DNA from: Stenotrophomonas maltophilia
GTDB lineage: Bacteria > Pseudomonadota > Gammaproteobacteria > Xanthomonadales > Xanthomonadaceae
Reading direction: 5' to 3'
Length of the DNA: 64,000 bases
NCBI RefSeq assembly: GCF_025642255.1
Contig: NZ_CP106759.1
Span: 2,321,501 to 2,385,500, forward strand
Positions 20,876-54,659 of the stretch are shown piece after piece. Position 1 is the first letter of the stretch; every line of letters begins with the position of its first letter. The position numbers were made by a program, and so were the translations under genes. The notes below the pieces were generated by a model. That model was not told where the DNA came from, did no database searches, and was given only the letters and a program-made list of their open reading frames with translations.

Positions 20876-22130
20876 GCGTCCTCCCTCCAAGCAACTCACC
20901 CAGCTGCCCGATCTGGGCGGCAGCGCGATAATCGATACGGACCCGCTCCATGCGCAGAGTTGCCAGCTGGCGTTCGGCCTCCATCCGCTCGCGCTGCACG
21001 CTGAGCAGATCGATGATGTCGCGGCGTCCGACCTGGAACTGGTCGTGATACAGGCCGCCGACGTGCGTGGACTCCTCCACCTGTTGCTGCAGCGCCTGCT
21101 CACGCAGTACCAGCGCATCGGCGTTGTCGAACAAGGTGCGCATCTTGCGCCGCAGATCACGGCGGGTGGCGTCGGCACTCCACTGCGCCGCCTCCAGTCG
21201 CTGCCGGGCCGCCGCCGGCCGCTGGAAATTGCTGAAGCCGCGCAGGACATCCATGCGCAGGCGCAGCGAAACCACCGAATCGTTCTCCATCTGGCCGCCG
21301 ATCTCGCGGCGCAGCGCCGATGCCTCCACGTTGAGCTGTGGCTTCAATGCCGCGCGCGATTCGGCCAGCTCCGCCTCGGCTGCCGCGGCATCCTCGCGCG
21401 ATTCCCGCAGCAGCGGCGCGGCCTCGATTGCTGCATCCAGGCCGTCACGCTGCCACGCCCGCCGTCCGGCAGGCAGGTCCGGCGCCTGCAGCGGGCCAGG
21501 ATCCCGGCCCAGCAGCAGGGCCAGCTGGTTGTTGGCATCGCGCAAGGCGCCTTCCTCGAACGCCAGCTGGTCCTGGCCGCGGGCGAACTCCAGCTGCGCG
21601 CGATCCAGCTCGGTGCGGTCGGCGTAGCCGCTGCCGCTGCGGTCGCGGGCCATGCCGCGGACGCCCTCGATCCGCTGCAGGAAGTCACGCACGGCCACCA
21701 CTCTTTCGCGGGCGACCAGCACGTCCAGGTAGGTCTCGATGATATCCAGCGCTGCGTCGTCCCGGGCGACCTCCAGCGCTGCCAGATAGCGGCGCTGGGT
21801 CGCACTGGCGGCCTCGACCTGGCTGCGCGTCCGGCCCCAGTCGAACAGCATCTGCGACAGCGTGACGTCGTACACCATTTCGGACATGTGTCCGGCCTGC
21901 GGTCCGCCGGAGATCTGCAGTGCGGGAAAGTAGCCCCCCCGTGCGATTTTCACGTCGGTGCCTGCCCGTTCCGCTTCGCTCAGCGCCGCACGCACCCGGG
22001 GATGGATCGCCAGTCCGGTCTGCACAGCCTGCTCCACACTCATCGCACTGGCCCCCGCCGGCAGGCCGCACAGCAGGAGGAGCGCGAACGCTCCTCCTGC
22101 CCACCGCCTTCGGCTCCGCCGTTGCGGCAT
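20856..22130 (-). CDS. TolC-family outer-membrane channel of the adhesin exporter
   Basis: The 424-residue protein has a signal peptide (AGGAFALLLLCGLPAGASA). Two related halves of long amphipathic helices follow, with the TolC-type openings LAIHPRVRAALSEAERAG and YDVTLSQMLFDWGRTRSQVE. Repeats of this kind build the outer-membrane barrel and periplasmic tunnel. Its ATG overlaps the adhesin stop by one base (TGATG), so it is translated right after the adhesin. It is the outer component of the type I system for the 3126-residue adhesin. Confidence 0.92.
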   Translation of the reverse strand: MPQRRSRRRWAGGAFALLLLCGLPAGASAMSVEQAVQTGLAIHPRVRAALSEAERAGTDVKIARGGYFPALQISGGPQAGHMSEMVYDVTLSQMLFDWGRTRSQVEAASATQRRYLAALEVARDDAALDIIETYLDVLVARERVVAVRDFLQRIEGVRGMARDRSGSGYADRTELDRAQLEFARGQDQLAFEEGALRDANNQLALLLGRDPGPLQAPDLPAGRRAWQRDGLDAAIEAAPLLRESREDAAAAEAELAESRAALKPQLNVEASALRREIGGQMENDSVVSLRLRMDVLRGFSNFQRPAAARQRLEAAQWSADATRRDLRRKMRTLFDNADALVLREQALQQQVEESTHVGGLYHDQFQVGRRDIIDLLSVQRERMEAERQLATLRMERVRIDYRAAAQIGQLGELLGGRTHADAAH

Positions 22131-31510: not shown

Positions 31511-31952
31511 GGGACATTCCTCTCTACAGGCGCACCGCCATGCGCACAACGACGTCACGCACAGCGATCACGCTGGCACGGCGGCACGGAATGGATATGT
31601 TTTCGCGCGAAGCCACCGCCAACGGGCAAAACGCCTGCTGCCGGATACGTGCTTCGGAATCTTCAGGCGACCGGATGCAGCGATGCGACGCGCCCGGTCG
31701 TGGTGCGATGCAGCGCTACAGCGTGGGCGCGAGATGCAGATGCATGACGACAATCCTCTTGTCTGGAATCGCCGACGCGCGTTCAGCGACGCGGTCAGGG
31801 CCGTCGGACGTCGGCCATTGCTCCCCGTCCGCTGCGGGAGGGTATACACCGCGTCGAAGTGAACGTTCCATGCAGATTGCGTGCATGCGGCCTTCATTGC
31901 GTGGGCCATTGAAAGCTCTGTGACGCAGTTGGCACGTCATTACGCTGGAACA

Positions 31953-39090: not shown

Positions 39091-39687
39091 ATGACGACCT
39101 GTTCCTTCGGCCCTCCGATTCCGCCGCTCCGCCCCGTGCTGCGCCAACACCTCGTGCAGCTGCAGGCGGCCCCGATCACCCTGCGCCTGTTCAACCGCGC
39201 CGATCTGCCACGCTGGCGCGCCTTCGACGATCGAAGGAGCCGCGGCATCTTCCGCCCGTCAGGCGTCGACGAGGAAGCGCGCTTCCTGGCAGGCGTCCAC
39301 CGTTCGCGCCTGCAGCAGGACAACGACCAGCTGCTGCTGGGCGTGTTCGATGACCGGCACGGCATGCTGCATGATCAACTGCAGATCCAGCTGCACTCCG
39401 CCCACGCCCGTTGCGCCGAGCTGCGTTCAATGCAGCACAGCCACGAGCATCCCGCGCAGGCGTTGCAGGCGCTGTGCCCCTTCCTGTTCGACCAGGTCGG
39501 ACTGCATCGCGTGTTCACCCTGCTTCCGGTGGCCAGCAGCACGCCTTTCGTCGATGCACTTCGCTCGGTGGGGTTCGAGCATGAAGGCCTGCTGCGCGAT
39601 CACCATCTGGATATCGATGGCTGGCAGGACCGGCAACTGCTGGCCTTGACCGCGCCGCGCTGGCGACAACAGGTCCGCCCGGACTAG
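39091..39687 (+). CDS. GNAT-like acetyltransferase
   Basis: The product of about 198 residues resembles RimJ/RimL-type GNAT proteins: ITLRLFNRADLPRWRAFDD at the substrate end, HPAQALQALCPFLFDQVGLHRVF in place of the acetyl-CoA loop and helix, and ALRSVGFEHEGLLRDHHLDIDGWQD as the final strands. The central strand carrying the usual Q/R-x-x-G-x-G/A loop is poorly kept, so activity is uncertain. The ATG at 39091 is preferred; 39070 and 39013 are in frame. The 3' end overlaps the next gene by 4 bases in convergent orientation. Confidence 0.6.
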   Translation: MTTCSFGPPIPPLRPVLRQHLVQLQAAPITLRLFNRADLPRWRAFDDRRSRGIFRPSGVDEEARFLAGVHRSRLQQDNDQLLLGVFDDRHGMLHDQLQIQLHSAHARCAELRSMQHSHEHPAQALQALCPFLFDQVGLHRVFTLLPVASSTPFVDALRSVGFEHEGLLRDHHLDIDGWQDRQLLALTAPRWRQQVRPD

Positions 39688-40460
39688 CGGACCCGCTCCA
39701 GCGCCGCATCCGCCCCGGTCAGTACCGAGCACGCATGGTCCTGCAGCTCCTCGCCGCTGGCCTCGTTGCCGGTCGCGGGATCCAGGCGGGTCGCCAGCAG
39801 AATGAAGCCGGGGCCTCCCAGCACATTCTCGCGGCCTGCCACCACCAGGCTCCATTGGCCGACATCGGGCAGCCCGCTCAGGTCATAGGCGAGCAGGTTC
39901 AATGGATTCGCACGCAGTTCTGCTCCCGGCAGCATGCGCGCAACGTAACGATGGCCACGCAGCGGCACGGGCAACGCCGCCCACTGCATTCCGACCGCCG
40001 CGGCGTGCGTGTCCAGCGCCTGCAGCACATCGGCGCGCAGGCAGTCGATGTGGATGTGAAGCTGATGCTGGGAACGGCCGTGCGGCGAGTTCAGTGCAAG
40101 GCTTGCGACATTGCGCGGCAGGGGGCGGCCCAGTGCCTGTTCGGTATGCCCGCGGGCCTGCCAGGCGGCCGCGAAGTAGTTCGGCGCACCGCGCTGGTAC
40201 AGGGCAGCGCTCTCGATGCCACTGACCTTGTCCAGTGGCATCAGCAGGAACTGGTAGTCGCCATGGGCATCCTTGATGAGCACATCGCGGCGGGCCGCGG
40301 TCGCGTCCCGTTGTAGGCAGGCGCCACGCGGCACATCGGCACCGCGGCAATCGCGCTCGATCAGCCTCCACAGCGCATCCGACGGGACCGGAGCAGGCGC
40401 AGGCGCGCTGGCGCAGGCCGCCAGCAGCGAACAGGACAACAACAGGATCAGGCGGGTCAC
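39684..40460 (-). CDS. CDP-diacylglycerol pyrophosphatase-like lipoprotein
   Basis: The 258-residue product begins with a lipoprotein signal (MTRLILLLSCSLLAACAS, lipobox LAAC). It contains the HxHxD motif in SQHQLHIHIDCL, preceded by NSPHGRS, plus CRGADVPRGACL and FLLMPLDKVSGIES. These fit the Cdh family, HIT-like enzymes that hydrolyse CDP-diacylglycerol to phosphatidate and CMP at the membrane. A GTG at 40460 is the probable start; a GTG at 40469 is also possible, and no ATG gives the signal. It lies 56 bases beyond the Tle1 phospholipase gene on the same strand. Confidence 0.8.
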   Translation of the reverse strand: MTRLILLLSCSLLAACASAPAPAPVPSDALWRLIERDCRGADVPRGACLQRDATAARRDVLIKDAHGDYQFLLMPLDKVSGIESAALYQRGAPNYFAAAWQARGHTEQALGRPLPRNVASLALNSPHGRSQHQLHIHIDCLRADVLQALDTHAAAVGMQWAALPVPLRGHRYVARMLPGAELRANPLNLLAYDLSGLPDVGQWSLVVAGRENVLGGPGFILLATRLDPATGNEASGEELQDHACSVLTGADAALERVR

Positions 40461-40516
40461 GGGTCTCACAATCGACGGCACGGCAAGGGCTGCGCCGGCC
40501 AGTGTACCCTGCCCCC

Positions 40517-42214
40517 TCAGCCGGGCACGGCCTCTCGCGTATCCGCCGTCTCCTCGACCTTGCCGGGCGTGTACTTGGTCGCGCCGAAGTACAGCACCCG
40601 CCATTGGCTCAGGTTGCCGATGAACCAGTGCGCCACCGAGTCATGACCGTACCCGTCGAAGAAGGTCTCCACCTCCGGCGGCAGCAGGGTCGTATTGTCC
40701 CAGGATTCCAGAGTGACCCGCTCGGCCATGGTCAGCGTTCTGCCGCGCTCCCGGCGCCGTCGCAGGCTGACGATCTTGTCCAGCAGCGTGTCGTTCTCCT
40801 TCTCCAGCCCCCGGCGCTGCTTGCGTACCGCAGAGAGCTCATCGTTGCGCGCCTTCAGCTCGTCTGAGACCCGGTTCCATTCGGCGGTCTTCTCCGCATT
40901 GCCCTGGTCGGCCAGATGCAGGTTGTCGTTGTCCCAGGGCGATGGCAGCTGCGACTGCCGTCGGCGCAGCGTGCGCACCTGTTCCCGCAGGGCCTCTTCG
41001 CGTGCAGCAAGCCGCTGCATCGACGGCAACTGGTCACCGCGTGCCACGCGCACGCGCAGCCAGCGATACAGCAGCTCCATATGCGATGCCTGCACGTCCT
41101 CCATGCGCCCGCGCTTGACCCGCACCGCCTGCAGATAGGCGTTGAACACCGCCTGCAGTTCTGGATCCTGCTTGTCGAACTCGGCCTTGACGTGCTCTTC
41201 CAGGCGACTGATCGGGTTGAGCAGCACCCCCCTGGCCTGCGCCATGTCATACATCTCGTTCAGGGCAAAGCGCGCGATGCTGTTCCGGCGCCCCTGGTGC
41301 TGGGGATCGTAGCCACCGCCCACGTCCGAGTGCACACCCGGGAACCATATTTCCACCGTGTTGGCGGGGTATTGGGCATGCTCGCGGGTGGAATCCAGGG
41401 GGAACTGGCCGCGCAGCTCATGGGCGGCGGTCATGTGCACCGACTGCTCCACGATCTCCGGTATGGTCATGCCTTCAGCCCATCCGGTATGCCCATTGCG
41501 GTAGTTCACTGCCGCCGCCGTCAGGCTGGGCCACACCGAGCACACCGTATCGAACACGCCCATGAATCCGATCCGCAGCGGAATACGCTCGCGGTACAGC
41601 CAGGTGCCATCGGCCTGGCGTCGGCAGCGCGCGGCCAGATCGCGGGCGAACGCGCGTGCCGAAGCCGCTCCGCGCGAAAAGCCCAGTACCGACACGCTGA
41701 CCACCAGGATGCGCATCGGCTCGGGCTGGCTGTCTATCAGCTCGTCCAGCGACTGCAGCGCGAAGTCGATGCGCTCGCGCCCGCCCTTGCCGATGGACAG
41801 CCCCAGCAGCCCCCCCTTATCACCGACCTCCGGGCACGGTGTTCCTACGCCGGACAGGTACTGCCGTTTTATGTTCCGTGTGTCGTCCCTGTGCGCGATG
41901 AACAAGCGGGCGATGTTCGACAATGCGCGCTCATTCTGGGCCTTGTTCAGCTCCTCATCGCGATTGTTGCCGGTGCCATCGAAGAATACGGCCAGGTGCA
42001 GGCTCTGCGTGCATCCCGTAGTGGCCGCTTCCTTGTCGGGCACGGTGCCACACATCGCCTCCTGGCGACGGCGGCGCTCGGCATCGCTCAGCGGACGTGT
42101 GCCGCGGGCCAGTCGCGCAGTGCGTGCCGTGCCCTCAGCCTGGGCGACCGGATCCGGGGTGCCCGGTTCAAGATCCACCTGCCCGGGAATCGCGGTCGGA
42201 TCAATACTGGTCAT
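40517..42214 (-). CDS. tle1: T6SS phospholipase effector, Tle1-like (DUF2235), copy A
   Basis: The 565-residue protein has the DUF2235/Tle1 hydrolase core: LAVFFDGTGNNRDEE, nucleophile Ser180 in GFSRGAA, Asp297 in GVHSDVGGGY and a late His (about 524) in YGHDSVAHW. It has no signal peptide, as expected for a T6SS-injected effector. Tle1 enzymes are phospholipase A-type toxins that attack membranes of rival cells. A charged coiled-coil stretch lies at about residues 400-475 and is absent from copy B. It is the last gene of cassette A, and its start overlaps the DUF3304 gene by 14 bases. Confidence 0.9.
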   Translation of the reverse strand: MTSIDPTAIPGQVDLEPGTPDPVAQAEGTARTARLARGTRPLSDAERRRRQEAMCGTVPDKEAATTGCTQSLHLAVFFDGTGNNRDEELNKAQNERALSNIARLFIAHRDDTRNIKRQYLSGVGTPCPEVGDKGGLLGLSIGKGGRERIDFALQSLDELIDSQPEPMRILVVSVSVLGFSRGAASARAFARDLAARCRRQADGTWLYRERIPLRIGFMGVFDTVCSVWPSLTAAAVNYRNGHTGWAEGMTIPEIVEQSVHMTAAHELRGQFPLDSTREHAQYPANTVEIWFPGVHSDVGGGYDPQHQGRRNSIARFALNEMYDMAQARGVLLNPISRLEEHVKAEFDKQDPELQAVFNAYLQAVRVKRGRMEDVQASHMELLYRWLRVRVARGDQLPSMQRLAAREEALREQVRTLRRRQSQLPSPWDNDNLHLADQGNAEKTAEWNRVSDELKARNDELSAVRKQRRGLEKENDTLLDKIVSLRRRRERGRTLTMAERVTLESWDNTTLLPPEVETFFDGYGHDSVAHWFIGNLSQWRVLYFGATKYTPGKVEETADTREAVPG

Positions 42215-43583: not shown

Positions 43584-46358
43584 TCAGCCTCCCTTCGGTG
43601 TCAGCGGGGCTGCACGCTGTGCGGCCAGCAGCAGGCATTCCTTGCAGACCGACTGCGGGAAGACCGGCAACGGGTAACGGCCGCGATCGCCGGGCAGGAA
43701 CGACTTGCGTCCCGCGTGCACGGCGATCCTCCCGGGTGCGTTGAACACGATGTTGCCGCCGCTGAGGGTGATGCTGGCCCCGCCTGCGGTGGCCACCTGC
43801 ACCGTCCGGCCCGCAGCCACCTCCACGGCGCCCTGTGCGCTCGTGCCACGCAGCGACTGCCGCGACTGCACGCGCACTTCGTCCTGTTGCGCCTTGACGT
43901 CCAGCACCTGTTCGCCACTGGCCAGGGTCAGCGCCGGCTCGCCCGGATCAGCCCCCTCCAGTGTTGCGGCCAGTACGCCGATGGCCTGCCGTCCATGCCA
44001 GCGCGCCTGCCCCATCACCACGGCCTCGCCGTGCTGGCCGCTGCCCAGTGCCAGAGTCTCGCCCGGCGCCCAATGCAGCCCCTGTCCGGCCACCATCAGC
44101 GCACCATCAGGTGCAGCCAGGCCCAGCAGGGCATCGCCGGTATGCGGAACGCGGCCCTCGCCGGCATCACCGCTGCGTTCCGGCGCCGAGCCGGCCGCAT
44201 CCTGCAACGCGCTACCGGGCACCGTACTGCGCACGCTGGCCAGCAGCACCGGCAGCGGTGACTGCGAACCGTCCAACCGCGAGCGCTGCGGCGATTGCAC
44301 GCCGACATGCGCGGCCGGCCGCACTGTCAGATGCGTACCCGCCGCCGCAGCATGGCTGTGGGCCAGCGTGGCCAGCTGCTGCAACAGCGCAGCAGGCTGT
44401 GCCGCCGTACCTGCCGGTTCGACGCTGCGGCGGGCATAGGCACTCAACCAGAGCCCGCCTTGCCCGCGCACGCTGCCCCAGGCGTCGCTGCGCAACTCGA
44501 ATCCACTGCCGCGGAAGCTGCCTCTATGGTTGTCCGCCTGATGGCGCAGATGCCCCAGCGTCAATGCCGAAGCCTGCTGGCTGCTGGCCAGCTGGGCCCG
44601 CAGCTGCTGGTCGCTGTCGTCGAACAGCAGACGATTCCAGCCGGCCCCCTGCCACTCCCGTGATTGCACGCCCCACAGCGCACCGGCGTTGCGGTGTGCC
44701 TGCTCTCCGGTCGCCGCCGCGTGCCAGGCAGGCGCCTGGCCGCCCCCGAGGTTGGCCTGCGCACTGCCGGTGCCATCCCTCGCCTGTGCGTACATGGACG
44801 TATCGGCCTCCGCGCTGGCGCCCGCCGGGGTCGGCGCGACGCCGCCTTCTCCGCGCCCGTTGTACAGCGCGCCCAGCACCAGCGGCCGGTCGATGTCGCC
44901 CTCGAGGAAGCCCACCAGGACTTCCTGGCCGATACGGGGCAGGAACTGGCTGCCCACGCCCGGCCCCGCGTAGCGCTGCGCGACGCGCAGCCACGCGCTG
45001 TCCGTGCTGCCCTCTTCCTGCTGGAAGTGGAACCGCACGCGGATCCGTCCCAGTGCATCGGCGTGCAGCTCGGCGCCATCGGCGCCCTGCGCAGCCACCA
45101 CGACCGCTGTCTGGTAACCGGGCGCCAGCGGCCGCGGATTGCGTCGCGCACCCGTGCCGTCCCATAGCGTCGGACGCCAACGCCGGTCGCGGGGCAGAGC
45201 GACGAATGTCTGTGCGTAGCCCTGCGTCTGGGCAGCCACCTGCAGCGTGTCCGCGGTGGCGGCGGCATCGTCCATCGTTGCCAGCGCCTGGCGCAGATCC
45301 ACCGGCAGGTTGTTGACCCCGGCGTGCTCGACGTCCACCAACAACAGTTCGGTCGGCACTGACCCCGGCGTTCCGCTCAATGACCAGACCTGGCCGGCAT
45401 CGCCGCTGCGCACGCTGCCACGGCCGTGCCACTGCAGTGCCTGCGCCTCCAGTGCCTCGGCGACCAGCCGAGCGTGGTGCTGCAGCTCGGCCGCGTCGGC
45501 AAAGGCATGCGCGCCAACCGGGTCGTAATCCTCGCGTCGCGCCTGCCCGCTGCCCTGCACCGGCAACTGGCCGGCCAGCGAGCGCGCACTGCGGTAGTCG
45601 CTGCTGTGCAGCTGCACGTGCGTGCTATGCAGCCGCCGTTGCAGGCCGAGCTGCTGCACGCCATCACTCTGCTCGGTGCCATCGGCGCGATGGAAGCGGA
45701 TCCCTCCCGCCGACTGCGACGCAGCGGCTTCCGGCAGGAGGGTCGAATCGGCGAACAGCAGCACGCCGTGGCCGGCCGTCGCCTCCCCGGTATCCTGCAC
45801 GCACCAGCCCAGCCCTTCTTCGGCCAGCAAACGCTGCACGAAGGCCAGGTCGGTCTCGCGGTACTGCACGCAATAGCTGCGCGGCCGGGATGCGGCCAGC
45901 ATCCCGTCGACCTCATCGCTCCAGCGCCAATGCGCATGTTGCGGGTGCATCTGGAACACCGCGTCCACGATCTCGCGCACGCTCTGTTCCTGGAACACGC
46001 GGCTGCAGCGGGCCTGGTCGAGCCACCAGGTCCAGTCACGCAGCGTGATGCGATAGCGCACCAGTCCACCGTCAGCGCCCACGCACTGCGCATCGGCGAT
46101 CACGCCGTGACGCGGCCAATCCTGGCCATCGGCCAGGTGCACATGCAGGCATGCGGGCCGCCCCGGCCAGTCAGCCAGTGGCAGCGATGCGTCCAGCGCG
46201 AGTACATCGATCTGAAGATGCCGCCCCTGCGACAGGGCATCACGCCCGTGCCACCGGTCGACAACGACCGCCGGCATGCCGGGGAGATCCAACCGATACA
46301 GGCGGCTGCCGGCATCAAGACCCGCTGCCTGCACCATGAGGTTGCGAATCGCTTCCAT
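43584..46358 (-). CDS. vgrG: T6SS spike protein VgrG (TssI), cassette A
   Basis: The 924-residue protein has the gp27-like N-terminal module (CSRVFQEQSVREIVDAVF, SYCVQYRETDLAFVQRLLAEEG) and the gp5/OB region (SAWLRVAQRYAGPGVGSQF, LPRIGQEVLVGFLEGDIDRP). A DUF2345 beta-helix follows (from about residue 650, NLGGGQAPAWHAAATGEQ before it, GGASITLSGGNIVFNAPG near the end). The C-terminus ends with a CKEC cysteine pair. It forms the piercing tip that carries PAAR and the effector. It is a clear paralogue of the VgrG at 51876-54659. GGTAGGAA precedes the ATG. Confidence 0.93.
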   Translation of the reverse strand: MEAIRNLMVQAAGLDAGSRLYRLDLPGMPAVVVDRWHGRDALSQGRHLQIDVLALDASLPLADWPGRPACLHVHLADGQDWPRHGVIADAQCVGADGGLVRYRITLRDWTWWLDQARCSRVFQEQSVREIVDAVFQMHPQHAHWRWSDEVDGMLAASRPRSYCVQYRETDLAFVQRLLAEEGLGWCVQDTGEATAGHGVLLFADSTLLPEAAASQSAGGIRFHRADGTEQSDGVQQLGLQRRLHSTHVQLHSSDYRSARSLAGQLPVQGSGQARREDYDPVGAHAFADAAELQHHARLVAEALEAQALQWHGRGSVRSGDAGQVWSLSGTPGSVPTELLLVDVEHAGVNNLPVDLRQALATMDDAAATADTLQVAAQTQGYAQTFVALPRDRRWRPTLWDGTGARRNPRPLAPGYQTAVVVAAQGADGAELHADALGRIRVRFHFQQEEGSTDSAWLRVAQRYAGPGVGSQFLPRIGQEVLVGFLEGDIDRPLVLGALYNGRGEGGVAPTPAGASAEADTSMYAQARDGTGSAQANLGGGQAPAWHAAATGEQAHRNAGALWGVQSREWQGAGWNRLLFDDSDQQLRAQLASSQQASALTLGHLRHQADNHRGSFRGSGFELRSDAWGSVRGQGGLWLSAYARRSVEPAGTAAQPAALLQQLATLAHSHAAAAGTHLTVRPAAHVGVQSPQRSRLDGSQSPLPVLLASVRSTVPGSALQDAAGSAPERSGDAGEGRVPHTGDALLGLAAPDGALMVAGQGLHWAPGETLALGSGQHGEAVVMGQARWHGRQAIGVLAATLEGADPGEPALTLASGEQVLDVKAQQDEVRVQSRQSLRGTSAQGAVEVAAGRTVQVATAGGASITLSGGNIVFNAPGRIAVHAGRKSFLPGDRGRYPLPVFPQSVCKECLLLAAQRAAPLTPKGG

Positions 46359-46432
46359 GGCGTTCCTACCGTTGCTGCCCTCCGCGACGCGGCGGGCAGG
46401 TCCTTCCCCTGTAGGGCGACGGTAGCAGATGG

Positions 46433-46458
46433 AAAACGGCGGCGCACGCGACCGCCGT
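46433..46458 (-). terminator. Intrinsic terminator between the two T6SS cassettes
   Basis: On the minus strand ACGGCGG, a 9-base loop and CCGCCGT form a 7-base stem, and the last bases run into TTTT then CC. It lies 22 bases after the stop of the exported protein gene at 46481. It would separate cassette B and its trailing genes from the VgrG of cassette A, which would then need its own promoter in 46359-46432. Confidence 0.5.
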
Positions 46459-46480
46459 CACGCCGGATTAACGTTCCGGA

Positions 46481-47098
46481 TCAATAGGTTCCGTAGGACA
46501 CTTCGACGATCACCGGCTTGCCTGTGTCTTGTGCCGGTTGCAGGGTGAAGCGGTCCAGCGCGCTGCTGTCATCCCCCAGCGGCGTGCTGCGGAACTGCAG
46601 GCGATAGGTCGCCCCTGCCTGCACGCTGCCATCGGGCAGCAGGCGCGCGTCGGCGGGCAGCAGCAGGCCTCCCAGATCGCTGTAGGCTTCGGGCGCGTCG
46701 CTGAAACCGTAGTCGACAAGCTCATCGGTACGACGCATTTCGTAGACCCGCGTCGGCCAGGGGCGGGCCGTGCTGCGGCCGTTGCGCAGGTCGGTCACCC
46801 ACTGCTCTGGCAATTGATAGACCTTGCGCAGTGCGGTGTCATCCAGCTCGGCACTGGCCACCTGCAGGCAGCACACCAGCCGCTTGCTCTCGCGGTCATA
46901 CACCGAGAAGCGCGCATCGCGTGCGACCGGCGTCGGCAGCAGTGCGAACGGGATGTCGCGCAAGGCGGGCTCGGCACCATCGCGGGAGTCCAGGTTGCGC
47001 CAGCCACCAAAGGCCGGTTCGGCGGCCTGTGCCAGCGGCGCCGCCAGGCACAGCGCCACCGCAAGCCCGCCGGCGGTGCGTCCGATCCACTTCTGCAT
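46481..47098 (-). CDS. Exported protein of unknown function, paralogue of 47902-48492
   Basis: The 205-residue protein has a signal peptide (GGLAVALCLAAPLAQA). The mature part shares an ordered set of short motifs with the protein at 47902-48492: GGWR, a ...LLP/MLP turn, VCCLxV followed by AE, WxTDLxNG, GGLLLPxDAR and a terminal VEVxxGTY. I do not recognise a family. Position between two Tle1 cassettes and periplasmic location suggest an immunity or accessory protein, by inference only. The ATG at 47098 is used; 47107 is in frame and possible. Confidence 0.7.
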   Translation of the reverse strand: MQKWIGRTAGGLAVALCLAAPLAQAAEPAFGGWRNLDSRDGAEPALRDIPFALLPTPVARDARFSVYDRESKRLVCCLQVASAELDDTALRKVYQLPEQWVTDLRNGRSTARPWPTRVYEMRRTDELVDYGFSDAPEAYSDLGGLLLPADARLLPDGSVQAGATYRLQFRSTPLGDDSSALDRFTLQPAQDTGKPVIVEVSYGTY

Positions 47099-47224
47099 GT
47101 CGTTCATCCGTCGATGGCCGGTGGCCAATCAGTTTCGTGAGGATGCCATGAAGGTGCGACGCCCGCCACGTCGGGAGGCCAGGCTCGTTCAGCCGGGCCC
47201 GGCGCTCGCGGGGGAACGCGGCCG

Positions 47225-47836
47225 CTACTGCATGTACTGCGTGGTGTGGCCGGTGAATCTGACACCATCGAATCCGAAGCAGAAGCGGCCCTCTTCGAAT
47301 GCCCGGTAGACGAGCAGTGCGCCGTTCACGCAGAACGTGTCGCTCTCAGCGGATGTCTCCACCGTGCCATAGGTACGCGCGCCCTCCTTGCCCACCAATG
47401 GGCCCGAGAACGCATCGATAGGCAACGGATACACGGTGCCGTCGCGGCTGTCGATCAGCACGATGGAGCGCTGGAAGTACTCCTTGCGCTCGTCCAGCTG
47501 GGCCAGGATGTAATGCCGGTTGAAGTTCGGCACCTGGGTAAGGATGGCCTGGTCGATCTGCGCGCGATGCTGCGCATCACAGAAGTCCACCGGGCTGTAT
47601 TCGTACGCGCAGCCGGAGTGTGGATAGCTCATCACAACGCCTGCGTAGGGCGCGTTGTGGGGCGTCGATGCCGGTCCTTGGCTGGCCGCGGCCGAACCTC
47701 TCGATGGATCCGGCTTGCCGGCGCACGCGGCAATCAAGACAAGCAGGATCAGCAGCAGCACTTGCTGGAAACCGCAGCAGCTGTCCGAAGTCCTGTTGCG
47801 CCGCACGCAGTCCTCCATCAGGTTCGACATGCACAT
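47225..47836 (-). CDS. Putative lipoprotein of unknown function in the T6SS locus
   Basis: The 203-residue frame has a hydrophobic segment with a lipobox (LLLILLVLIAACAGK), so it is a predicted lipoprotein. The mature part has five scattered cysteines (SGCAYEY, VDFCDAQH, DTFCVNG, GRFCFGF) and the motif RSIVLIDSRDGTVYPLPID. It belongs to no family I can name. It lies between the two paralogous exported proteins on the same strand. Several ATGs (47836, 47830, 47818) are possible starts; the first has a G-rich stretch upstream. A role in immunity is possible but unproven. Confidence 0.65.
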   Translation of the reverse strand: MCMSNLMEDCVRRNRTSDSCCGFQQVLLLILLVLIAACAGKPDPSRGSAAASQGPASTPHNAPYAGVVMSYPHSGCAYEYSPVDFCDAQHRAQIDQAILTQVPNFNRHYILAQLDERKEYFQRSIVLIDSRDGTVYPLPIDAFSGPLVGKEGARTYGTVETSAESDTFCVNGALLVYRAFEEGRFCFGFDGVRFTGHTTQYMQ

Positions 47837-47901
47837 CCCGCAGTAGCCCCCAGGTCCGCATGTGCTCCGTACATGCCTGCGCGCCGATTCAATGGCGGCA
47901 A

Positions 47902-48492
47902 CTAATAGGTTCCGAAGGGCACTTCGACCTTCAATGCCGCACCGCCCTTGGCCGGTTTCAAGGTGTAGGTATGAACGCCACCGTCACCATCGGCCAGCGA
48001 GGTCTCATGGCGCTGGACCGTATAACGCTCGCCGTCGATCTCCAGGGTGTCGGCCGCCACCGCCCGCGCGTCGGGTGGCAGCAGCAGACCACCAGCCGCT
48101 TCACGTTCTTCCTTGAAGGTGTAGCTGCTCAACGCACCCTGCACCTTCAGCAGCTGCACATGCGGGCGATAGGGTGCGGCATCGAGATTCCAGCCATTGG
48201 TCAGATCGGTGATCCACGGCCCCGGAATGTCAAAGCGATCCTGGAGCTCACTTTCGCCCACCTCGGCACCGTCCACCGACAGGCAACACACCACCTTGCC
48301 CGCCTTGGCGTCGTAGGCGGCCCATCGACTTCCCGCTGCTGCAGCGTGCGGCAGCATGGAGAAATGGTACTGTCGCTCCAGATCGCTGTCGGAGACTCTG
48401 CGCCAGCCGCCCACTTCGGGAGGCTGTGCATGGCACCCCACCGTGAGCAGTACACCGGCTACTGCAGCAGCCCGAATCACGAAGCCAGACAT
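47902..48492 (-). CDS. Exported protein of unknown function, paralogue of 46481-47098
   Basis: The 196-residue protein begins with a short signal (IRAAAVAGVLLTVGCHAQ) that could be lipidated at the Cys or cut after HAQ. The mature part carries GGWRRVSDSD, KVVCCLSVDGAE, PWITDLTNGW, GGLLLPPDAR and the terminal KVEVPFGTY, matching the paralogue downstream in order and spacing. The start at 48492 follows AAGGCAGG at modest spacing. It is 62 bases beyond the Tle1 copy B stop, so it is probably cotranscribed with that effector. Confidence 0.7.
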   Translation of the reverse strand: MSGFVIRAAAVAGVLLTVGCHAQPPEVGGWRRVSDSDLERQYHFSMLPHAAAAGSRWAAYDAKAGKVVCCLSVDGAEVGESELQDRFDIPGPWITDLTNGWNLDAAPYRPHVQLLKVQGALSSYTFKEEREAAGGLLLPPDARAVAADTLEIDGERYTVQRHETSLADGDGGVHTYTLKPAKGGAALKVEVPFGTY

Positions 48493-48554
48493 CTTCAGTT
48501 GCCTGCCTTGGACCAGGCCATCATTGCAACGGGCATTCCAGACGCTGCATCGCC

Positions 48555-50387
48555 TCACCCGCCCATTGCCGAGCCCAGCTGCTGGAACGCGCCGCCGATG
48601 GTGGGGATGTTCGCTGGCGGCAGCGTAGCCGGATCCCGGCACTCCTGAGCCCTCCTGCCGGCCACACTGAAGACCTCGCGATAGCGGAGGTAGCCGTAGG
48701 TATTGACGGCAGGAATATTCAGCTCCGTCCACTTCCCGATGTAGAAGCCGGCCAGCGAGTCATGCATGTAGTTGTCAAACAGCACCGTACTCACATCGGG
48801 TACCGGCGCACCGTCCAGCACAAGGTTAAGCAGAGTGCTGGTCTCGGCCGGGATTTTTGCGTAGTCGTAAGCCGCCTGGGAGGCCCGCGGCGTAGGTTCA
48901 AATACCGGTCGCCCGATCTTGCGACCCGCCTCCATGCGCTTCTGGCTTTCGTCCAGCTGCCTGCGGTAGGCCGCCATCTCCTCCTTGCCCCTGCGCAGCT
49001 TTCCAACCAGATTTGCGAAATCGCGCTGCGCATTGGCCAGATCCACCTGATCCTCGGCGTCGGACTGCTTGAAGAACGGCTGTTGCAGCACGCTCTGTGG
49101 ACCATTCGGCAGCCGCTTGCCCTTCCAGGCAACGTACTGCCGGCAATGTCCTGCAATCTGCTGCGTGTGCGCGCCTCCGGGGACACCGTGACCGGTCAGC
49201 CAGGCGTTGTAATCGCGGATCAGCTGTGGGTGGCAGCCGAAATGCATGGCGAGCACTGGCTGCGCCCCCAGTTCCTCGATCGTTTTCATTATCACGCCTG
49301 CCTTGACGGCCTCATGATGCATGTCGATCAACGGAATCTGCGCAAGCTTGGCGGTACCGTTCGCGGCACCGGAAACGAAGTCCTTGCCCTGGCCGCCGGG
49401 CGAGTAGCCGCCACCGACATCCGAGTGCATGCCCGGGTAAAGCACCTCCTTCCCGCTGGTCGCCAGGTCCAGCGGGAAATTGATCCGCTGCTCGTGCAGG
49501 GCCGCGAAATGCACGCTCTGGCGCGCTTCGGGGTGAATGCTCATCATGTCACCGGCGGCCCAGTCCCACTTGCCCTTCGAGACGCGGCTCATCGCAGCAA
49601 CGCCGACCGACGCAACGGTATCGAAGATGCCCATGAAGTTCAGGTAGAGCGGAATGCCGGCAATGTTGTAGCCGCAACCGCTGCCCCAGGCTTCTGCCGT
49701 CTCATACAGCCGGTGCACGAACGCCCGCGCCTGTGCCGCGCCACGCGAGAAGCCGAAGACGGAAACGTGCACCGACTTGACCCGGCGCTGGTGCCCCTTG
49801 ACCACGCGCTCCAACCGCTGCGCGATTGCCGTGAGCATCGCGCGTCGCGTCATGCCTTCCAGCAGTCGCGTCTCGCTCATTGAGGCGACCAATACTTTGG
49901 CTTCGTTGGGCTGGATCAGGTCACCACCGTTCAGGTACTGATGTACCGAATTGATGACCTGCAGGATGGCCCAGTGGATGCGGTCCGCACCATAACGCGC
50001 GGCGCCGCCTCCCAGCGTGTCACCATCCTGGTTGGTATCGCCGACGTCGGTGAATGGCGTGCCGACGCCGGGAACGTAGATGCTGAAGAAGCCGTTGCCA
50101 CGCTCCTTCAGGGCGGCGTCGTACAGGCGCGCCACATTGCTGTGACCGTTGCGGGCCAGCTGGGTCTTGGGGGAGCGCGTCTTGCCGGTTACAAAGGTCC
50201 CTTCCCACTCGCGGTTGTTGCCGGTGCCGTCGAAGTAGATGCCTACGTGCACCTGGCCCTGGCATTCGGAGCCCTTCTCGCGCATGCACGCCATGGCCCG
50301 CGCCCGCTGCTGCGCTTCGGCGCCGCTCAGCGCTCTGCGTCCATCTGCCGGCATTGGTTGCGCGCCGGTTGCCGTGCGTCCACTCAT
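48555..50387 (-). CDS. tle1: T6SS phospholipase effector, Tle1-like (DUF2235), copy B
   Basis: The 610-residue protein has the same catalytic layout as copy A: GIYFDGTGNNREWEG, Ser214 in GFSRGAAQARAF, Asp323 in GMHSDVGGGY and His542 in YMHDSLAGFY. It lacks the long coiled coil of copy A and instead has a Gly/His/Cys-rich central part (GCHPQLIRDYN, HTQQIAGHCRQYVAWKG) and a different C-terminal tail. No signal peptide is present. The two effectors are diverged enough to need separate immunity proteins. It lies downstream of VgrG, DUF4123 and DUF3304 genes in cassette B. Confidence 0.9.
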   Translation of the reverse strand: MSGRTATGAQPMPADGRRALSGAEAQQRARAMACMREKGSECQGQVHVGIYFDGTGNNREWEGTFVTGKTRSPKTQLARNGHSNVARLYDAALKERGNGFFSIYVPGVGTPFTDVGDTNQDGDTLGGGAARYGADRIHWAILQVINSVHQYLNGGDLIQPNEAKVLVASMSETRLLEGMTRRAMLTAIAQRLERVVKGHQRRVKSVHVSVFGFSRGAAQARAFVHRLYETAEAWGSGCGYNIAGIPLYLNFMGIFDTVASVGVAAMSRVSKGKWDWAAGDMMSIHPEARQSVHFAALHEQRINFPLDLATSGKEVLYPGMHSDVGGGYSPGGQGKDFVSGAANGTAKLAQIPLIDMHHEAVKAGVIMKTIEELGAQPVLAMHFGCHPQLIRDYNAWLTGHGVPGGAHTQQIAGHCRQYVAWKGKRLPNGPQSVLQQPFFKQSDAEDQVDLANAQRDFANLVGKLRRGKEEMAAYRRQLDESQKRMEAGRKIGRPVFEPTPRASQAAYDYAKIPAETSTLLNLVLDGAPVPDVSTVLFDNYMHDSLAGFYIGKWTELNIPAVNTYGYLRYREVFSVAGRRAQECRDPATLPPANIPTIGGAFQQLGSAMGG

Positions 50388-50492: not shown

Positions 50493-50972
50493 TCACTTTT
50501 CAAGCGGGCGCCGAAGGTGCTCCCAGATTGGATTCTCGCCCTCGCGCAAGGGCGCCTCGGGGCCGGTCAATGGATAGTCGGGATGACCGAGCACAAGATT
50601 GGTGACGAAGACCTTGATCTCGCCATTGCGCAGGAAATGGACGGCCAGGTTTCCGAGCTGGTTGTACTTCGGAATCGCAACGGTCTTCTTCTGGAACGTT
50701 TCGAGATCCGTGGTCCATTCGATCTCAACCTTCATGTCCGGCGTCCATCGATCAGGCAGCACGACGCAGCAGACAGTTCCGCCTTCCGAGTGGGAATCGG
50801 CCGACCCGCCACTGCCGCCATTCACGAGGAACTGCGCAATGTATGCATCCGTATGGTTGTAGCCGAGCACGGCCACCGGCGTGGAGGCCGTCCGTCCCTT
50901 GCAGGCCGCCAATGCCGGCAACAGGAGCAGCAACGCCAGGGCCGCCAGCAGATGGGTCCGCATCAAACGCAT
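50493..50972 (-). CDS. DUF3304 lipoprotein, probable immunity partner of Tle1 copy B
   Basis: The 159-residue protein has a clear lipoprotein signal (LLAALALLLLLPALAACKG, lipobox LAAC). The DUF3304 core follows: VLGYNHTDAYIAQFLVNG, a Gly/Ser stretch, EGGTVCCVVLPDRW and VEIEWTT. A membrane-anchored periplasmic protein is what protection from a membrane-attacking lipase would need. The ATG at 50972 has GGAAG upstream. It lies 10 bases after the DUF4123 gene. The immunity function is inferred from position and family. Confidence 0.8.
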   Translation of the reverse strand: MRLMRTHLLAALALLLLLPALAACKGRTASTPVAVLGYNHTDAYIAQFLVNGGSGGSADSHSEGGTVCCVVLPDRWTPDMKVEIEWTTDLETFQKKTVAIPKYNQLGNLAVHFLRNGEIKVFVTNLVLGHPDYPLTGPEAPLREGENPIWEHLRRPLEK

Positions 50973-50982
50973 GATTCTTCCT

Positions 50983-51879
50983 TCACGTCCACGAGGGTGC
51001 AGGCTCGGCCTGCAAAGGCGAGGCGGTGTGGTCCCACAGCGGGACGCCCGTCGTCCAGATATCTTCCGGCAGCGCTGATGCCCAGTCCGCGAACGGCACC
51101 TCACAGCTCCCGGCAGGCTGCGCGAAACGCGCCTGCACGGCAGGATGGCCGCGGCACGCGCCGGAGGTGTACAACGCCAGCAGCAGGTACTGCACGTGAT
51201 CGTCCACCTGGTTCACACCGTGGGCGATCGTATCCTGCATAAGGTCGACGACGAACGGGTACAGCGATCGATACGGCACCCGCTTGATCTCATCGGGGAT
51301 GACCCTGCGAAGCTGGGCAATGGCCACATCCGGCTCGCACGCGTCCAGCAGGCGCGTGTACTGGTCTTCGTCCAGGCGCAATGGCGGAAGCGCAGGCAGG
51401 CCGGCATCATCCATTCCGGCCAGCATCTCGGCCAGCGGCCATTCCTGCAGATCGCCGTAGCGATCGAAGTACTGCAGGCGCTGCACGCCCTCCAGCAGGG
51501 CGGCACGCTGCGCAGGCAACAACAGATCCAGCAGTGCAGGCAGGATACGGGTGTCGTACCAGCGCAACAGCATCTCACGACCGCCCTTCTCGGGCACCTT
51601 CACCAGATGGAAAGCACGCAACCGCTTCGCGAGATCGTCCAGTTCCAGTGCACTCCACAGCAGGGTCACGCCCGGCCTTTGCGCCCCCATCTGCCGGATC
51701 TCCGCATCCAGCTGCGCGTGCACGTCCCTGTCCGTCCAAGCCACCAGCAAGGGAGCAATATCCAGCAGGCCGGCCTCGGCCGTGCCTTCGAACAGTGAGC
51801 GATAGCGCGCGCCAAGACGCTCCAGCCGCTCATGGAAGTGCGACCGCTGCGCGCTGTCGATCACGGCGTAACGATTCAC
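50983..51879 (-). CDS. DUF4123 T6SS effector adaptor, cassette B
   Basis: The 298-residue protein shows the DUF4123 layout: an opening YAVIDSAQRSHFHERLERL, PLLVAWTDRDVHAQLD, and MLLRWYDTRILPALLDLLLP in the conserved position. It is much diverged from the cassette A adaptor, as expected if each serves its own effector. It overlaps the VgrG stop by 4 bases (ATGA). Confidence 0.85.
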   Translation of the reverse strand: MNRYAVIDSAQRSHFHERLERLGARYRSLFEGTAEAGLLDIAPLLVAWTDRDVHAQLDAEIRQMGAQRPGVTLLWSALELDDLAKRLRAFHLVKVPEKGGREMLLRWYDTRILPALLDLLLPAQRAALLEGVQRLQYFDRYGDLQEWPLAEMLAGMDDAGLPALPPLRLDEDQYTRLLDACEPDVAIAQLRRVIPDEIKRVPYRSLYPFVVDLMQDTIAHGVNQVDDHVQYLLLALYTSGACRGHPAVQARFAQPAGSCEVPFADWASALPEDIWTTGVPLWDHTASPLQAEPAPSWT

Positions 51880-54659
51880 ACCAGCACTCCCGGCGTGCCC
51901 TGGCGCATGGCGTCGAGAATGCAGCTCTTACAGCTGCTGCGCGGGAACTGGGGAAGCGGATAGCCCTGCTGCGCCGGGCCGACGAATGACTTGCTGCCCG
52001 CATGCACCTTGATCGTGCCCGGACAGGCGATGGTGATGTTGCCACCGGCAATGGTCAGGCTGGCCCCCCCGGACGTCGCCACGTGGATCGTATTGGCCGC
52101 TGCGAGTTCCACCGGCGCCTGCGCGCTGGCCCCGCGCAGAGCGCCACGCGACTGCACGCGCACCCCATCCGCCTGGGACTGGATATCGAGCATTTCAGTG
52201 CCGGCCACGACGTCAAGCGCGGTGGGTGTGGCCGCTGCTCCCTCAACCACGGACGCAAGCACGCCGATCGCCTGCCCCGCATGCAGACGGGTCTGCCCCA
52301 TGGTAACCGTGTCGCTATGACCGCCACTGGCCAACAGCAGGCCTTCACCGCTCCCCCAGTGCACTCCCTGGCCTGCCACCTGCACCAGTCCCTGCGGTGC
52401 GGCCAGTCCAAGCAGTGGATCACCCGAATGCGGCACGCGATCCTGCCCAGCATCCGACTTGCGCTCGGTCGCACCACTCTTGCCGATATCGAATCCATCA
52501 CCGCCCGTGGTGGTGCGTACGCTCGTCAGCAGCGCGGGAACCGGCGACTGATCGGGAACCAGCTCCGAGCGCTTTGGCGCGCGCGCGCCCTCCTGCATCG
52601 CCAACGGGCTGGTCAGGTGTGTACGCGCGGCCTGGGTGAAGCGCTCGCCCAGCGTCTGCAGCTGCGCAAGCAGCGCGGAAGGCTGCACCGCCTCGCCCGC
52701 AGGTGCCGTCGACCGATGCCCGTACGCCGAGAACCAGGCACCGGCCGTGGCGCGCACCGCGCCCCACGCGTCGCTGCGCAGTTCAAAACCGGTGCCACGC
52801 AGGCTGCCGACATAATTGTCTGCCTGATGACGCAGGTGCCCCAGGGTCAGTTGTGACACCTGCTGGCTGCTGGCCAGCTGCGCGCGCAGTTGCTGGTTCG
52901 AGTCATCGAACAGCAGATGGTTGGCGCCCTGCCCGCCTTCCCACTCGCGCGAGCGGATACCCCACAGCGCACCGCCCTGCCGATGCGCCTGGTCCCCCAT
53001 GCCGGCAGCATGCCAGGCCGGCGCCTGGCCGCCACTGAGGTTGGCCTGCGCGCTGCCGCGCATGTCTGCAGCCTGGCCATACAGCGATACGTCGCTCTGG
53101 CCGCTTCCGCCGGCTGGCGTCGGTGCCACGCCCGCCTCGCCACGTCCGTTGTACAGGGTGCCCAGCACCAGTGGCCGATCGATATCGCCGTCGAGGAAGC
53201 CCACCAGCACTTCCTGACCGATGCGCGGCAGGAACTGGCTGCCCACGCCGGGTCCGGCATAGCGCTGTGCCACGCGCAACCATGCGCTGTCGTTGGCTCC
53301 GCCGCCCTCGCCTTCCTGGAAGTGGAAACGCACGCGCACGCGGCCATGGCTGTCTGCGTGCAGGTCCTTGCTGGCGCCTCCGTCGCCGGCAACCACGACA
53401 GCGGTCTGGTAACCCGGCACGGTCGGGCGCGGATTCAGCCGTGCGCCACTACCGTCCTGCAGCAGCGGGCGCCACGGCAGGGTGCGATCCACCGCGTCGA
53501 AACGGTTGCCATACCCGGTTGCTTCGGCCTGCTGCCAGAGCGCAGCGTCGGCCGGATCGATCGGCGCCACGCCCAGCGCGTCATCGAGGCTTCGTCGCAG
53601 ATCGGTAGGGAGATTGTTGATGCCGGCATGTTCGACGGCCACCAGCAGCAGCTCAGGCGGTGTCGCACCGGGGGCCTGCTGCAGCCGCAGCCATTGTCCG
53701 GACTGGAAGCCGCGAACCGTACCCGACCCCTGCCAGCCACGGCTGTGGGTTTCGCGCGCCTGCGCCTGCAGGCGGGCCTGACGCGCACCGGCGGTACTGT
53801 CGCTGAAGGCGTAGGCACCTACCGCATCGTAGTCTTCGCGCGACGATTGGCCACCTCCGCCCTCCATCGGCGACTGTGCCACCAGTGCGCGTACCTGGCG
53901 GTAATCATCGCTCTGCAGGCTGATCGAAGTACTGGCCAGGCGCCGACGCAGGCCAATGGCCTGCACGCTGTCACTGGATTCGGTGGCGTCACTGCGATGG
54001 AACCGCACGCCTGCAGCCGCGCTGGTGGCATCTTCCGGCAGCGCGACGCTGTCGGCGAAGATCTCCATGCCATTGCCGCAGGGCGCTTCCTCATCGGCGT
54101 ACAGACGCCAGCCCAGGCCTTCTTCGGCGAGCACGCGCTGCAGGAAATCCAGGTCACTCTCGCGGTACTGCACGCAGTAGCTGCGCACGCGCTGGCCAAG
54201 GAAGGCGTCGACGCCCTCGGCCCAGCGCCAGCGCGCGATGCCAGCGTGCCCTGCCAGTACGGCATCGACGATCGCACGCACGCTCTGTTCCTGGAACACG
54301 CGGCTGTGCCGAGCATGCTGCAGCCACCACGTCCATGACACCAGCTGCAGCCGGTAGCGCACCAGGCCACCGTCGCTGCCCAGGCAGGAAGCGTCCGCGA
54401 TCAGGCCGCTGCGCTGCCATTGACCACCATCGGCCATCTGCGCGACCAGTGTCGCACGCGTGCCCGGCAGGGCATCCAGCGCGATATCAGCGCGCGTGGC
54501 GAGTACATCGACATCGGTCCAGGCATGTTGGCCGAGCGCATCACCGCCGCGCCACCGCTCCACCGTGCACCCTTCCAGTGCATCGGACCGCAGTCGATAC
54601 AGGCGTTGCGCGTCACCGAGCCCGGCAACCTGGGTCATCACGTAGTTCAGCTGATCCAT
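51876..54659 (-). CDS. vgrG: T6SS spike protein VgrG (TssI), cassette B
   Basis: The 927-residue protein has the same domains as the cassette A VgrG and long shared stretches: SRVFQEQSVRAIVDAV, WLRVAQRYAGPGVGSQFLP, RIGQEVLVGFLDGDIDRPL, YNGRGEAGVAPTPAG. It also has a DUF2345 C-terminal region ending in a CKSC pair. The last ~50 residues and parts of the DUF2345 region differ between the copies, and these are likely to set adaptor or effector choice. It is the first gene of cassette B, divergent from tssA, with a 233-base gap in between. GGAATTGG precedes the ATG. Confidence 0.93.
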   Translation of the reverse strand: MDQLNYVMTQVAGLGDAQRLYRLRSDALEGCTVERWRGGDALGQHAWTDVDVLATRADIALDALPGTRATLVAQMADGGQWQRSGLIADASCLGSDGGLVRYRLQLVSWTWWLQHARHSRVFQEQSVRAIVDAVLAGHAGIARWRWAEGVDAFLGQRVRSYCVQYRESDLDFLQRVLAEEGLGWRLYADEEAPCGNGMEIFADSVALPEDATSAAAGVRFHRSDATESSDSVQAIGLRRRLASTSISLQSDDYRQVRALVAQSPMEGGGGQSSREDYDAVGAYAFSDSTAGARQARLQAQARETHSRGWQGSGTVRGFQSGQWLRLQQAPGATPPELLLVAVEHAGINNLPTDLRRSLDDALGVAPIDPADAALWQQAEATGYGNRFDAVDRTLPWRPLLQDGSGARLNPRPTVPGYQTAVVVAGDGGASKDLHADSHGRVRVRFHFQEGEGGGANDSAWLRVAQRYAGPGVGSQFLPRIGQEVLVGFLDGDIDRPLVLGTLYNGRGEAGVAPTPAGGSGQSDVSLYGQAADMRGSAQANLSGGQAPAWHAAGMGDQAHRQGGALWGIRSREWEGGQGANHLLFDDSNQQLRAQLASSQQVSQLTLGHLRHQADNYVGSLRGTGFELRSDAWGAVRATAGAWFSAYGHRSTAPAGEAVQPSALLAQLQTLGERFTQAARTHLTSPLAMQEGARAPKRSELVPDQSPVPALLTSVRTTTGGDGFDIGKSGATERKSDAGQDRVPHSGDPLLGLAAPQGLVQVAGQGVHWGSGEGLLLASGGHSDTVTMGQTRLHAGQAIGVLASVVEGAAATPTALDVVAGTEMLDIQSQADGVRVQSRGALRGASAQAPVELAAANTIHVATSGGASLTIAGGNITIACPGTIKVHAGSKSFVGPAQQGYPLPQFPRSSCKSCILDAMRQGTPGVLV

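Follow-up and report, generated by a model that had tools for sequence, protein, structure and literature searches.

The window analysed here is a stretch of 64,000 nucleotides (nt) of Stenotrophomonas maltophilia DNA (assembly GCF_025642255.1, contig NZ_CP106759.1, positions 2,321,501 to 2,385,500). Among the vgrG modules of its type VI secretion system (T6SS) cluster, three small genes with apparently exported products lie on the minus strand between the gene for Tle1 B, a Tle1-type phospholipase, and the next vgrG (Table 1). The outer two, copy 1 and copy 2, had been predicted from sequence to belong to one unnamed family, and both open reading frames (ORFs) were recovered at the predicted positions and strand; the start of copy 2 follows the stop of Tle1 B by 62 nt. 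The third gene (47225-47836), which lies between them and also looks exported, was not part of that prediction. Individual loci and genomes are cited below by L and G numbers, respectively.

The homology of copies 1 and 2 extends over their whole length, with 71 of 207 positions identical (34%; E-value 3e-30 in a single BLASTP comparison). The shared motifs and low overall identity pointed out by the original prediction are therefore real, and the motif cores (G-x-W-R, VCC, the D of TDL, GGL-x-x-P, EV and the final Y) are invariant in 30 aligned relatives; in copy 1 numbering, the invariant positions include G31, W33, R34, P55, D68, VCC 75-77, D103, GGL 143-145 and P148. In a search of 5.8 billion proteins, copy 1 was matched in 37 rows and copy 2 in 52, of which one is the protein encoded in the window itself. 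Each copy drew its own set of matches, and some of the weaker copy 2 rows look frame-shifted. Named sources were Stenotrophomonas or Achromobacter, the exceptions being a compost metagenome and a single row under the name Bacillus subtilis. Several of these relatives are named 'decarboxylase', but Pfam, NCBIfam and PHROGs revealed no decarboxylase domain, and no other credible known domain, in either copy. The N-termini, judged by eye, suggest that both proteins are exported. An AlphaFold2 model of copy 2, built from 57 sequences, is mostly beta and confident from about residue 22 (mean predicted local distance difference test 86.4, predicted template modelling score 0.81). Fold searches (Foldseek and VIA) retrieved no clear relative from the PDB, from which novelty of the fold does not follow, and a profile built from 30 family sequences had a single weak match in the PDB, to a CBS domain (E-value 0.65).

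In S. maltophilia LMG 978 (L037) and SJTL3 (L038), the corresponding slot contains, in order, vgrG, an Ivy-type inhibitor gene, genes for a protein of 485-494 amino acids (aa) and another of 733 aa, a copy 2 homologue, two small genes, a copy 1 homologue and the next vgrG. The first gene after vgrG in L037 exceeds the Pfam cut-off for Ivy, the second matches a phage tail-lysozyme (PHROGs, E-value 2e-17), and the 733-aa protein matches SH3, EF-hand and, at its C-terminus, an M15-type peptidase, all three under the Pfam cut-offs. Residues H666, D673 and H727, which we take to be the M15 zinc-ligand pattern, are invariant across 16 such effectors.

We searched for this M15-type effector across the genus, in a set of 91 genomes that represents each species about once. 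It was found at full length (about 730 aa, SH3/EF-hand) in eight of them, with a family member directly behind it in all eight. The spacing is 2 nt in seven genomes, the start being uncertain in the eighth (L068); the spacing list has ten rows, as L037 and L038 repeat L061 and L065. In four further genomes (G042, G078, G084 and G089) the match is limited to the SH3/EF part, which there belongs to longer frames that end in another C-terminus; G055 carries a fragment. A family member stands directly behind none of the four effectors with the other C-terminus, and G089 has no family gene anywhere in its genome. Since the family gene follows the M15 effectors and is missing behind the others (4 of 4), the presumed antidote appears to go with the M15 toxin domain. 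Matches to the effector query occur in 33 of 395 genomes from the taxonomic family, some members of the genus included; the longer ones mostly stop near residue 520, within the carrier part, and a few reach the M15 part. Related M15 domains, 62-64% identical, are found in proteins named Nannocystis and Archangium. The SH3/EF-hand part itself (approximately residues 5-520 of L037:7797-9995) is a carrier common to proteins with different C-terminal domains, L115 and L116 for example, and may mark further effectors.

The window preserves a trace of this effector. Its DNA is collinear with L037 (80-82%) up to position 51976, inside the 3' end of vgrG, and is then unrelated until collinearity resumes at position 48515 and continues through copy 2 (88%), and again from 47657. 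Immediately upstream of the copy 2 start, 22 of 23 nt are identical to the end of the L061 effector gene and its spacer, while the preceding 37 nt agree at 9 positions, which is chance level. In addition, the last 39 residues of VgrG B are identical to those of the VgrG that precedes the Tle1 of G063. The Tle1-type vgrG tail and the remnant together indicate that a module extending from the vgrG tail to tle1 replaced an older effector, while the immunity gene stayed in place. The effector has no match in the window's own genome (M15 domain alone, E-value 0.295), and neither has the other, non-M15 C-terminal effector domain, in a search that lacked a positive control. Another genome of the same species, G042, carries the c44 effector at this position, so the slot varies within the species.

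Copy 2 thus bears both marks of orphaning by displacement: an effector that is unmatched in its genome and present at the same locus in relatives, and a new effector-immunity module upstream together with a trace of the old 3' end. A tree of 75 family proteins, out of 82 family ORFs, agrees with this picture (the six rows of L037-L039, already present as L061, L065 and L084, and one short piece of L076 were set aside). Copy 2 groups with five effector-linked genes, one G078 gene and 12 genes from Achromobacter and Bordetella; the cognate, effector-linked genes of G031, G056 and G072 form one clade. Both copies show a ratio of nonsynonymous to synonymous substitution rates (dN/dS) of about 0.09 relative to L061, where the relative of copy 2 is effector-linked, and none of the 64 family matches in the genus contains a stop codon. 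Taken together, these sequence data make copy 2 very probably an orphaned immunity gene for a displaced SH3/EF-hand/M15-type effector.

Table 1. Features around copies 1 and 2, in window coordinates
Feature	Position	Strand	Details
cdh, CDP-diacylglycerol pyrophosphatase	39684-40475	-	PF02611, E-value 5e-67; neighbour of the lone family gene in T6SS-less genomes
VgrG A	43584-46358	-	Opens the vgrG-DUF4123-DUF3304-tle1A-cdh module downstream of copy 1
Copy 1	46481-47098	-	205 aa from the ATG at 47098; open frame extends to 47128
Second orphan immunity candidate, lipoprotein-like (N-terminus judged by eye)	47225-47836	-	Homologues behind same-carrier effectors with the other C-terminal domain
Copy 2	47902-48492	-	196 aa from the ATG at 48492
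Effector remnant: last 7 codons (stop included) and 2-nt spacer before copy 2	48493-48515	-	22 of 23 nt as in L061
Tle1 B, DUF2235-type phospholipase, current effector of the slot	48555-50387	-	PF09994, E-value 4.6e-22
DUF3304/Tli1a-family immunity candidate of Tle1 B (start chosen by us)	50493-50972	-	PF11745, E-value 1.4e-22; NCBIfam Tli1a_fam, 114.4 bits (cut-off 110)
DUF4123 adaptor, Tla1-like	50983-51879	-	PF13503, E-value 8.1e-24; NCBIfam Tla1, 77 bits, under the cut-off of 200
VgrG B	51876-54659	-	C-terminal tail of the Tle1-module type; remainder collinear with relatives carrying the M15-type effector

The gene at 47225-47836 appears to have a parallel history. Homologues of it come immediately after the c44 effector at L084 (a genome also represented by L039), L086 and L099, and behind the effector with the other C-terminus in G042, G078 and G084; genes 42-44% identical to it stand behind the effectors of L115 and L116, from two genomes of another genus. 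By eye, we take the C-terminus of that other effector to resemble a lysozyme or transglycosylase, a likeness that is not confirmed. From this adjacency alone, 47225-47836 is likely to encode the antidote to the effector variant with the other C-terminal domain. If each antidote goes with its toxin domain, the window would have kept two antidotes to two displaced toxins. Another small gene of the slot, that of cluster c24 (L037:10704-11354, L039:4819-5634), lies upstream of an M23-type effector and, in several strains with the M15 effector and in G063, behind the copy 2 homologue or Tle1. It is possibly another antidote of the same slot; no such gene was detected in the interval that separates copy 2 from 47225-47836 in the window.

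Copy 1 belongs to a different part of the tree. Judged from the sequences, it is a diverged paralogue of copy 2 and the orthologue of a lone gene that occupies the T6SS site in T6SS-less species. The family is present in 56 of the 91 genomes of the genus and TssB in 24; family members occur in 15 of the 24 genomes with TssB and in 41 of the 67 without it. In all 41 TssB-less carriers, at most 250 nt separate the family gene from cdh and the fetched stretch contains no vgrG; in 40 of them the stretch also includes an I78-like inhibitor gene, whose I78 match is just under the Pfam cut-off. The arrangement next to cdh was seen in none of the 13 carriers with both TssB and a local vgrG (one of these, G049, has no cdh), and G033 shows the lone arrangement although TssB is present, on another contig. 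These adjacency counts cover 55 loci, with the window's own genome left out. In the source genome, the boundary of the T6SS cluster falls precisely on the opposite side of that neighbourhood, which there begins with an I78-like gene; the genes that follow it are presumably dld, lldD, lldR and lldP. Six genomes have cdh without a family gene: five TssB-less genomes with cdh in the same neighbourhood, and G037, which carries a vgrG-Tle1 module without a family gene. At these family-less sites the I78-like gene was called in three (directly beside cdh in G030 and G052, separated from it by one gene in G028), and lldD adjoins cdh in G011 and G077. Sites with neither element, with the family gene alone and with a T6SS all occur, a pattern compatible with loss as well as gain of the T6SS beside cdh.

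The lone genes show low dN/dS, with median values of 0.21 (435 pairs, 30 genes) and 0.13 (20 of 21 pairs, 7 genes), compared to 0.09 for four effector-linked genes. The first set is the large lone-gene clade of 31 rows less G033, which has TssB; the second takes 7 of the 10 rows from a second clade. For copy 1 itself, polarised changes number 15 synonymous and 3 nonsynonymous on the window branch against 14 and 3 on the L061 branch, using one outgroup from the clade of copy 1. On balance, we lean slightly towards copy 1 also blocking a peptidoglycan peptidase of the M15 type.

Beyond Stenotrophomonas, a scan of named genomes for the clade of copy 2 yielded 15 loci: three in Stenotrophomonas (L037, L038 and Stenotrophomonas sp. 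RAC2, L039), 11 in Achromobacter and one in Bordetella trematum. Outside Stenotrophomonas, the gene surroundings are of about six kinds. L043, L049 and L050 share one type of neighbouring gene, SMI1/KNR4-like in L043 (at the Pfam cut-off), and the L049 locus adjoins genes in common with the window's T6SS cluster. The Achromobacter and Bordetella copies read as orphan immunity genes that have been moved around. In four Achromobacter loci (L042, L046, L049 and L050), the family gene is followed by the same c46 gene, which encodes 339-348 aa and looks by eye like a membrane protein; the L049 copy, when scanned, matched no Pfam family over the cut-off.

Other features of the region concern its Tle1 proteins. 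The order vgrG-DUF4123-DUF3304-tle1A-cdh is common to L037, L038, L061 and L065. Tle1 A (40517-42214) shares only 29% identity with Tle1 B, and more than 90% with the corresponding proteins of most S. maltophilia-like loci. Tle1 B represents a second Tle1 type, found in G063, G031, G089 and G080; its identity to the Tle1 that occupies this slot in G063 (L070) is 88%. A third Tle1-like frame, of 491 aa, is located elsewhere in the source genome (G000:C1:834535-835182, outside the window). Elsewhere in the window, one minus-strand open frame of 3143 aa spans positions 22130-31558.

Considered as a whole, the stretch from Tle1 B to the next vgrG is probably a small array of orphaned T6SS immunity genes. 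The target of copies 1 and 2 would most likely be a displaced effector with an M15-type, D-Ala-D-Ala peptidase-like domain, and not Tle1. In the lineage of the window, a vgrG-tail/DUF4123/DUF3304/tle1 module would have replaced the M15-type effector, sparing its last seven codons and the immunity gene. The antidotes would be exported to the periplasm, where they would bind the incoming enzyme and halt the cutting of peptidoglycan, and the cell may thereby be shielded from neighbours that still fire the old effector.

Several observations weigh against this interpretation. The M15 assignment of the effector is under the Pfam cut-off (best E-value 0.0012), and PDB searches returned nothing with its C-terminal 255 residues and the EF-hand region only with 16 whole effectors. 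Nine genomes of other genera match the M15 part, and in the five of these nine loci that were fetched (L136-L139 and L142) other genes lie downstream, with no family member. A profile comparison of the family with the gene that follows the M15 protein of L137 gave a probability of 6.8%, no support for a remote relationship. None of the 12 non-Stenotrophomonas carriers has the effector, and the clade of copy 1, comprising 53 rows of the tree, contains no effector-linked gene, the target of copy 1 being deduced from its 34% identity to copy 2. No promoter-like site was found in 46300-48800, where 0.4 would be expected by chance. Finally, with two outgroups, 18 of the 60 codons that differ in copy 2 could be polarised: 6 synonymous and 5 nonsynonymous changes fall on the window branch, 7 and 0 on that of L061. 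The contrast is not significant (Fisher p 0.10) and gives a hint of relaxed constraint after orphaning.

The original prediction had proposed that both copies are additional immunity proteins against Tle1 phospholipases. Immunity has held up, with good support in the case of copy 2 and as a plausible role of copy 1, whereas Tle1 as the target has not, and we regard it as very improbable. The short distance from Tle1 B to copy 2 and the exported appearance of the proteins would suit such a role, yet Tle1 B has a Tli1a-family DUF3304 gene of its own, the family is found directly behind the M15-type effector in eight of eight genomes with that effector, and G037 and G089 carry Tle1 modules but no family gene. 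That copy 2 is preceded by the effector remnant further argues against its having arrived there with Tle1 B. The immunity protein Tli1 or Tli1a, in the sections of PMC13133936 covered here, is an exported DUF3304 protein encoded with the vgrG-Tle1 module. In contrast, copies 1 and 2 contain no DUF3304 (copy 1 matches no Pfam family, and copy 2 only an unrelated one at E-value 0.046, under the cut-off), and their family goes with the M15-type effector. The other proposal, a new T6SS accessory family acting in the apparatus or in effector delivery, for instance as a chaperone, deserves almost no credence. Family members do lie among vgrG modules in 14 T6SS-positive genomes, that of the window included, but 41 of the 56 carriers in the genus lack TssB, 9 of the 24 genomes with TssB lack the family, apparent export is ill-suited to a cytoplasmic loading role and copy 2 persists after its effector has gone. 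Homologues lying mostly away from T6SS genes had been named as a refutation of the original prediction and, taken literally, that is what was observed: in the genus, most carriers are TssB-less, and the Achromobacter and Bordetella carriers are without the effector. A distribution mostly away from the T6SS argues against an accessory family and fits orphan immunity genes.

An unlikely alternative, though one with something in its favour, is that the family began as a resident housekeeping inhibitor, acting in the periplasm on an endogenous peptidoglycan hydrolase and encoded beside cdh, from which T6SS strains recruited copies; copy 1 would then be the housekeeping protein and copy 2 a recruited antidote. 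The constant position of the clade of copy 1, alone beside cdh in every TssB-less carrier and nearly always with the I78-like gene, is what this account would expect, as is the low dN/dS of the lone genes (median 0.21). Against it, the family is missing from 35 of the 91 genomes, and five TssB-less genomes have the cdh neighbourhood without it, so the gene is dispensable; in T6SS strains, moreover, the family sits between two vgrG modules. Orphaned immunity to displaced effectors remains the account that we prefer for the array.

The nearest described system is the vgrG2 operon of S. rhizophila CFBP13503, which, in the parts of the source covered here, comprises tse2a-tsi2a, tse2b-tsi2b1 and a homologous immunity gene, tsi2b2 (PMC13340143). 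The same parts list Tai2b1 (20.9 kDa) and Tai2b2 (22.4 kDa), both annotated as decarboxylase, as the predicted immunity protein and a homologous immunity protein to V2b, a 79.8 kDa Zn-dependent DD-peptidase with SH3 (PMC13340143). The genes of L058/L062 would encode proteins of 20.9, 22.4 and 79.9 kDa in the corresponding order, with our start calls. Tai2b1 and Tai2b2 (WP_141057884 and WP_181406176) are likened to our family by name, mass and gene order alone (vgrG2, Ivy gene, V2a, V2b, two family genes, vgrG1, partly deduced from accession numbers). The effector is present in S. rhizophila; in the window, it is gone, with its last codons left and Tle1 in its place. Neither orphaned copies nor the lone gene of T6SS-less species is described in the covered parts of PMC13340143. 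A lone gene named decarboxylase is reported at the T6SS site of S. maltophilia K279a and T50-20, in a section that gives it no function or link to an effector (PMC10732056); it probably belongs to the clade of copy 1. The vgrG2 slot is known to vary among S. maltophilia isolates, holding a phospholipase, an SH3 protein or an M23 endopeptidase, and the word 'orphan' is absent from the main text of that source, as far as covered (PMC13055248). In the open literature, surveyed in part and with subscription papers and preprints outside the survey, we found no description of these Stenotrophomonas genes as orphaned. Displacement of this kind is established in Vibrio cholerae, where, according to the sections covered, a new effector-immunity module takes the place of the earlier effector, whose immunity gene persists and possibly protects against kin with that effector (PMC5361080). 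The V. cholerae arrays belong to another genus and to other effector and immunity families; in the window, the exchange reaches into the vgrG tail, and a seven-codon remnant marks the break.

A role and a target can thus be offered for a family that databases call 'decarboxylase', and the displacement known from Vibrio appears in another genus, with a break point legible almost to the base. We also suggest, tentatively and with slightly less than even confidence, that in many species one immunity gene may replace the whole weapon cluster. The lone gene, intact in 41 of the 67 TssB-less genomes, would be kept by purifying selection as a stand-alone shield against the peptidoglycan-peptidase effectors of armed kin. 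Members of the family would also have been carried without the effector into several chromosomal sites of Achromobacter and Bordetella, and T6SS strains would stack such shields behind new effectors. The question of whether unarmed strains in the genus of an opportunistic pathogen keep one antidote because armed kin select for it becomes testable.

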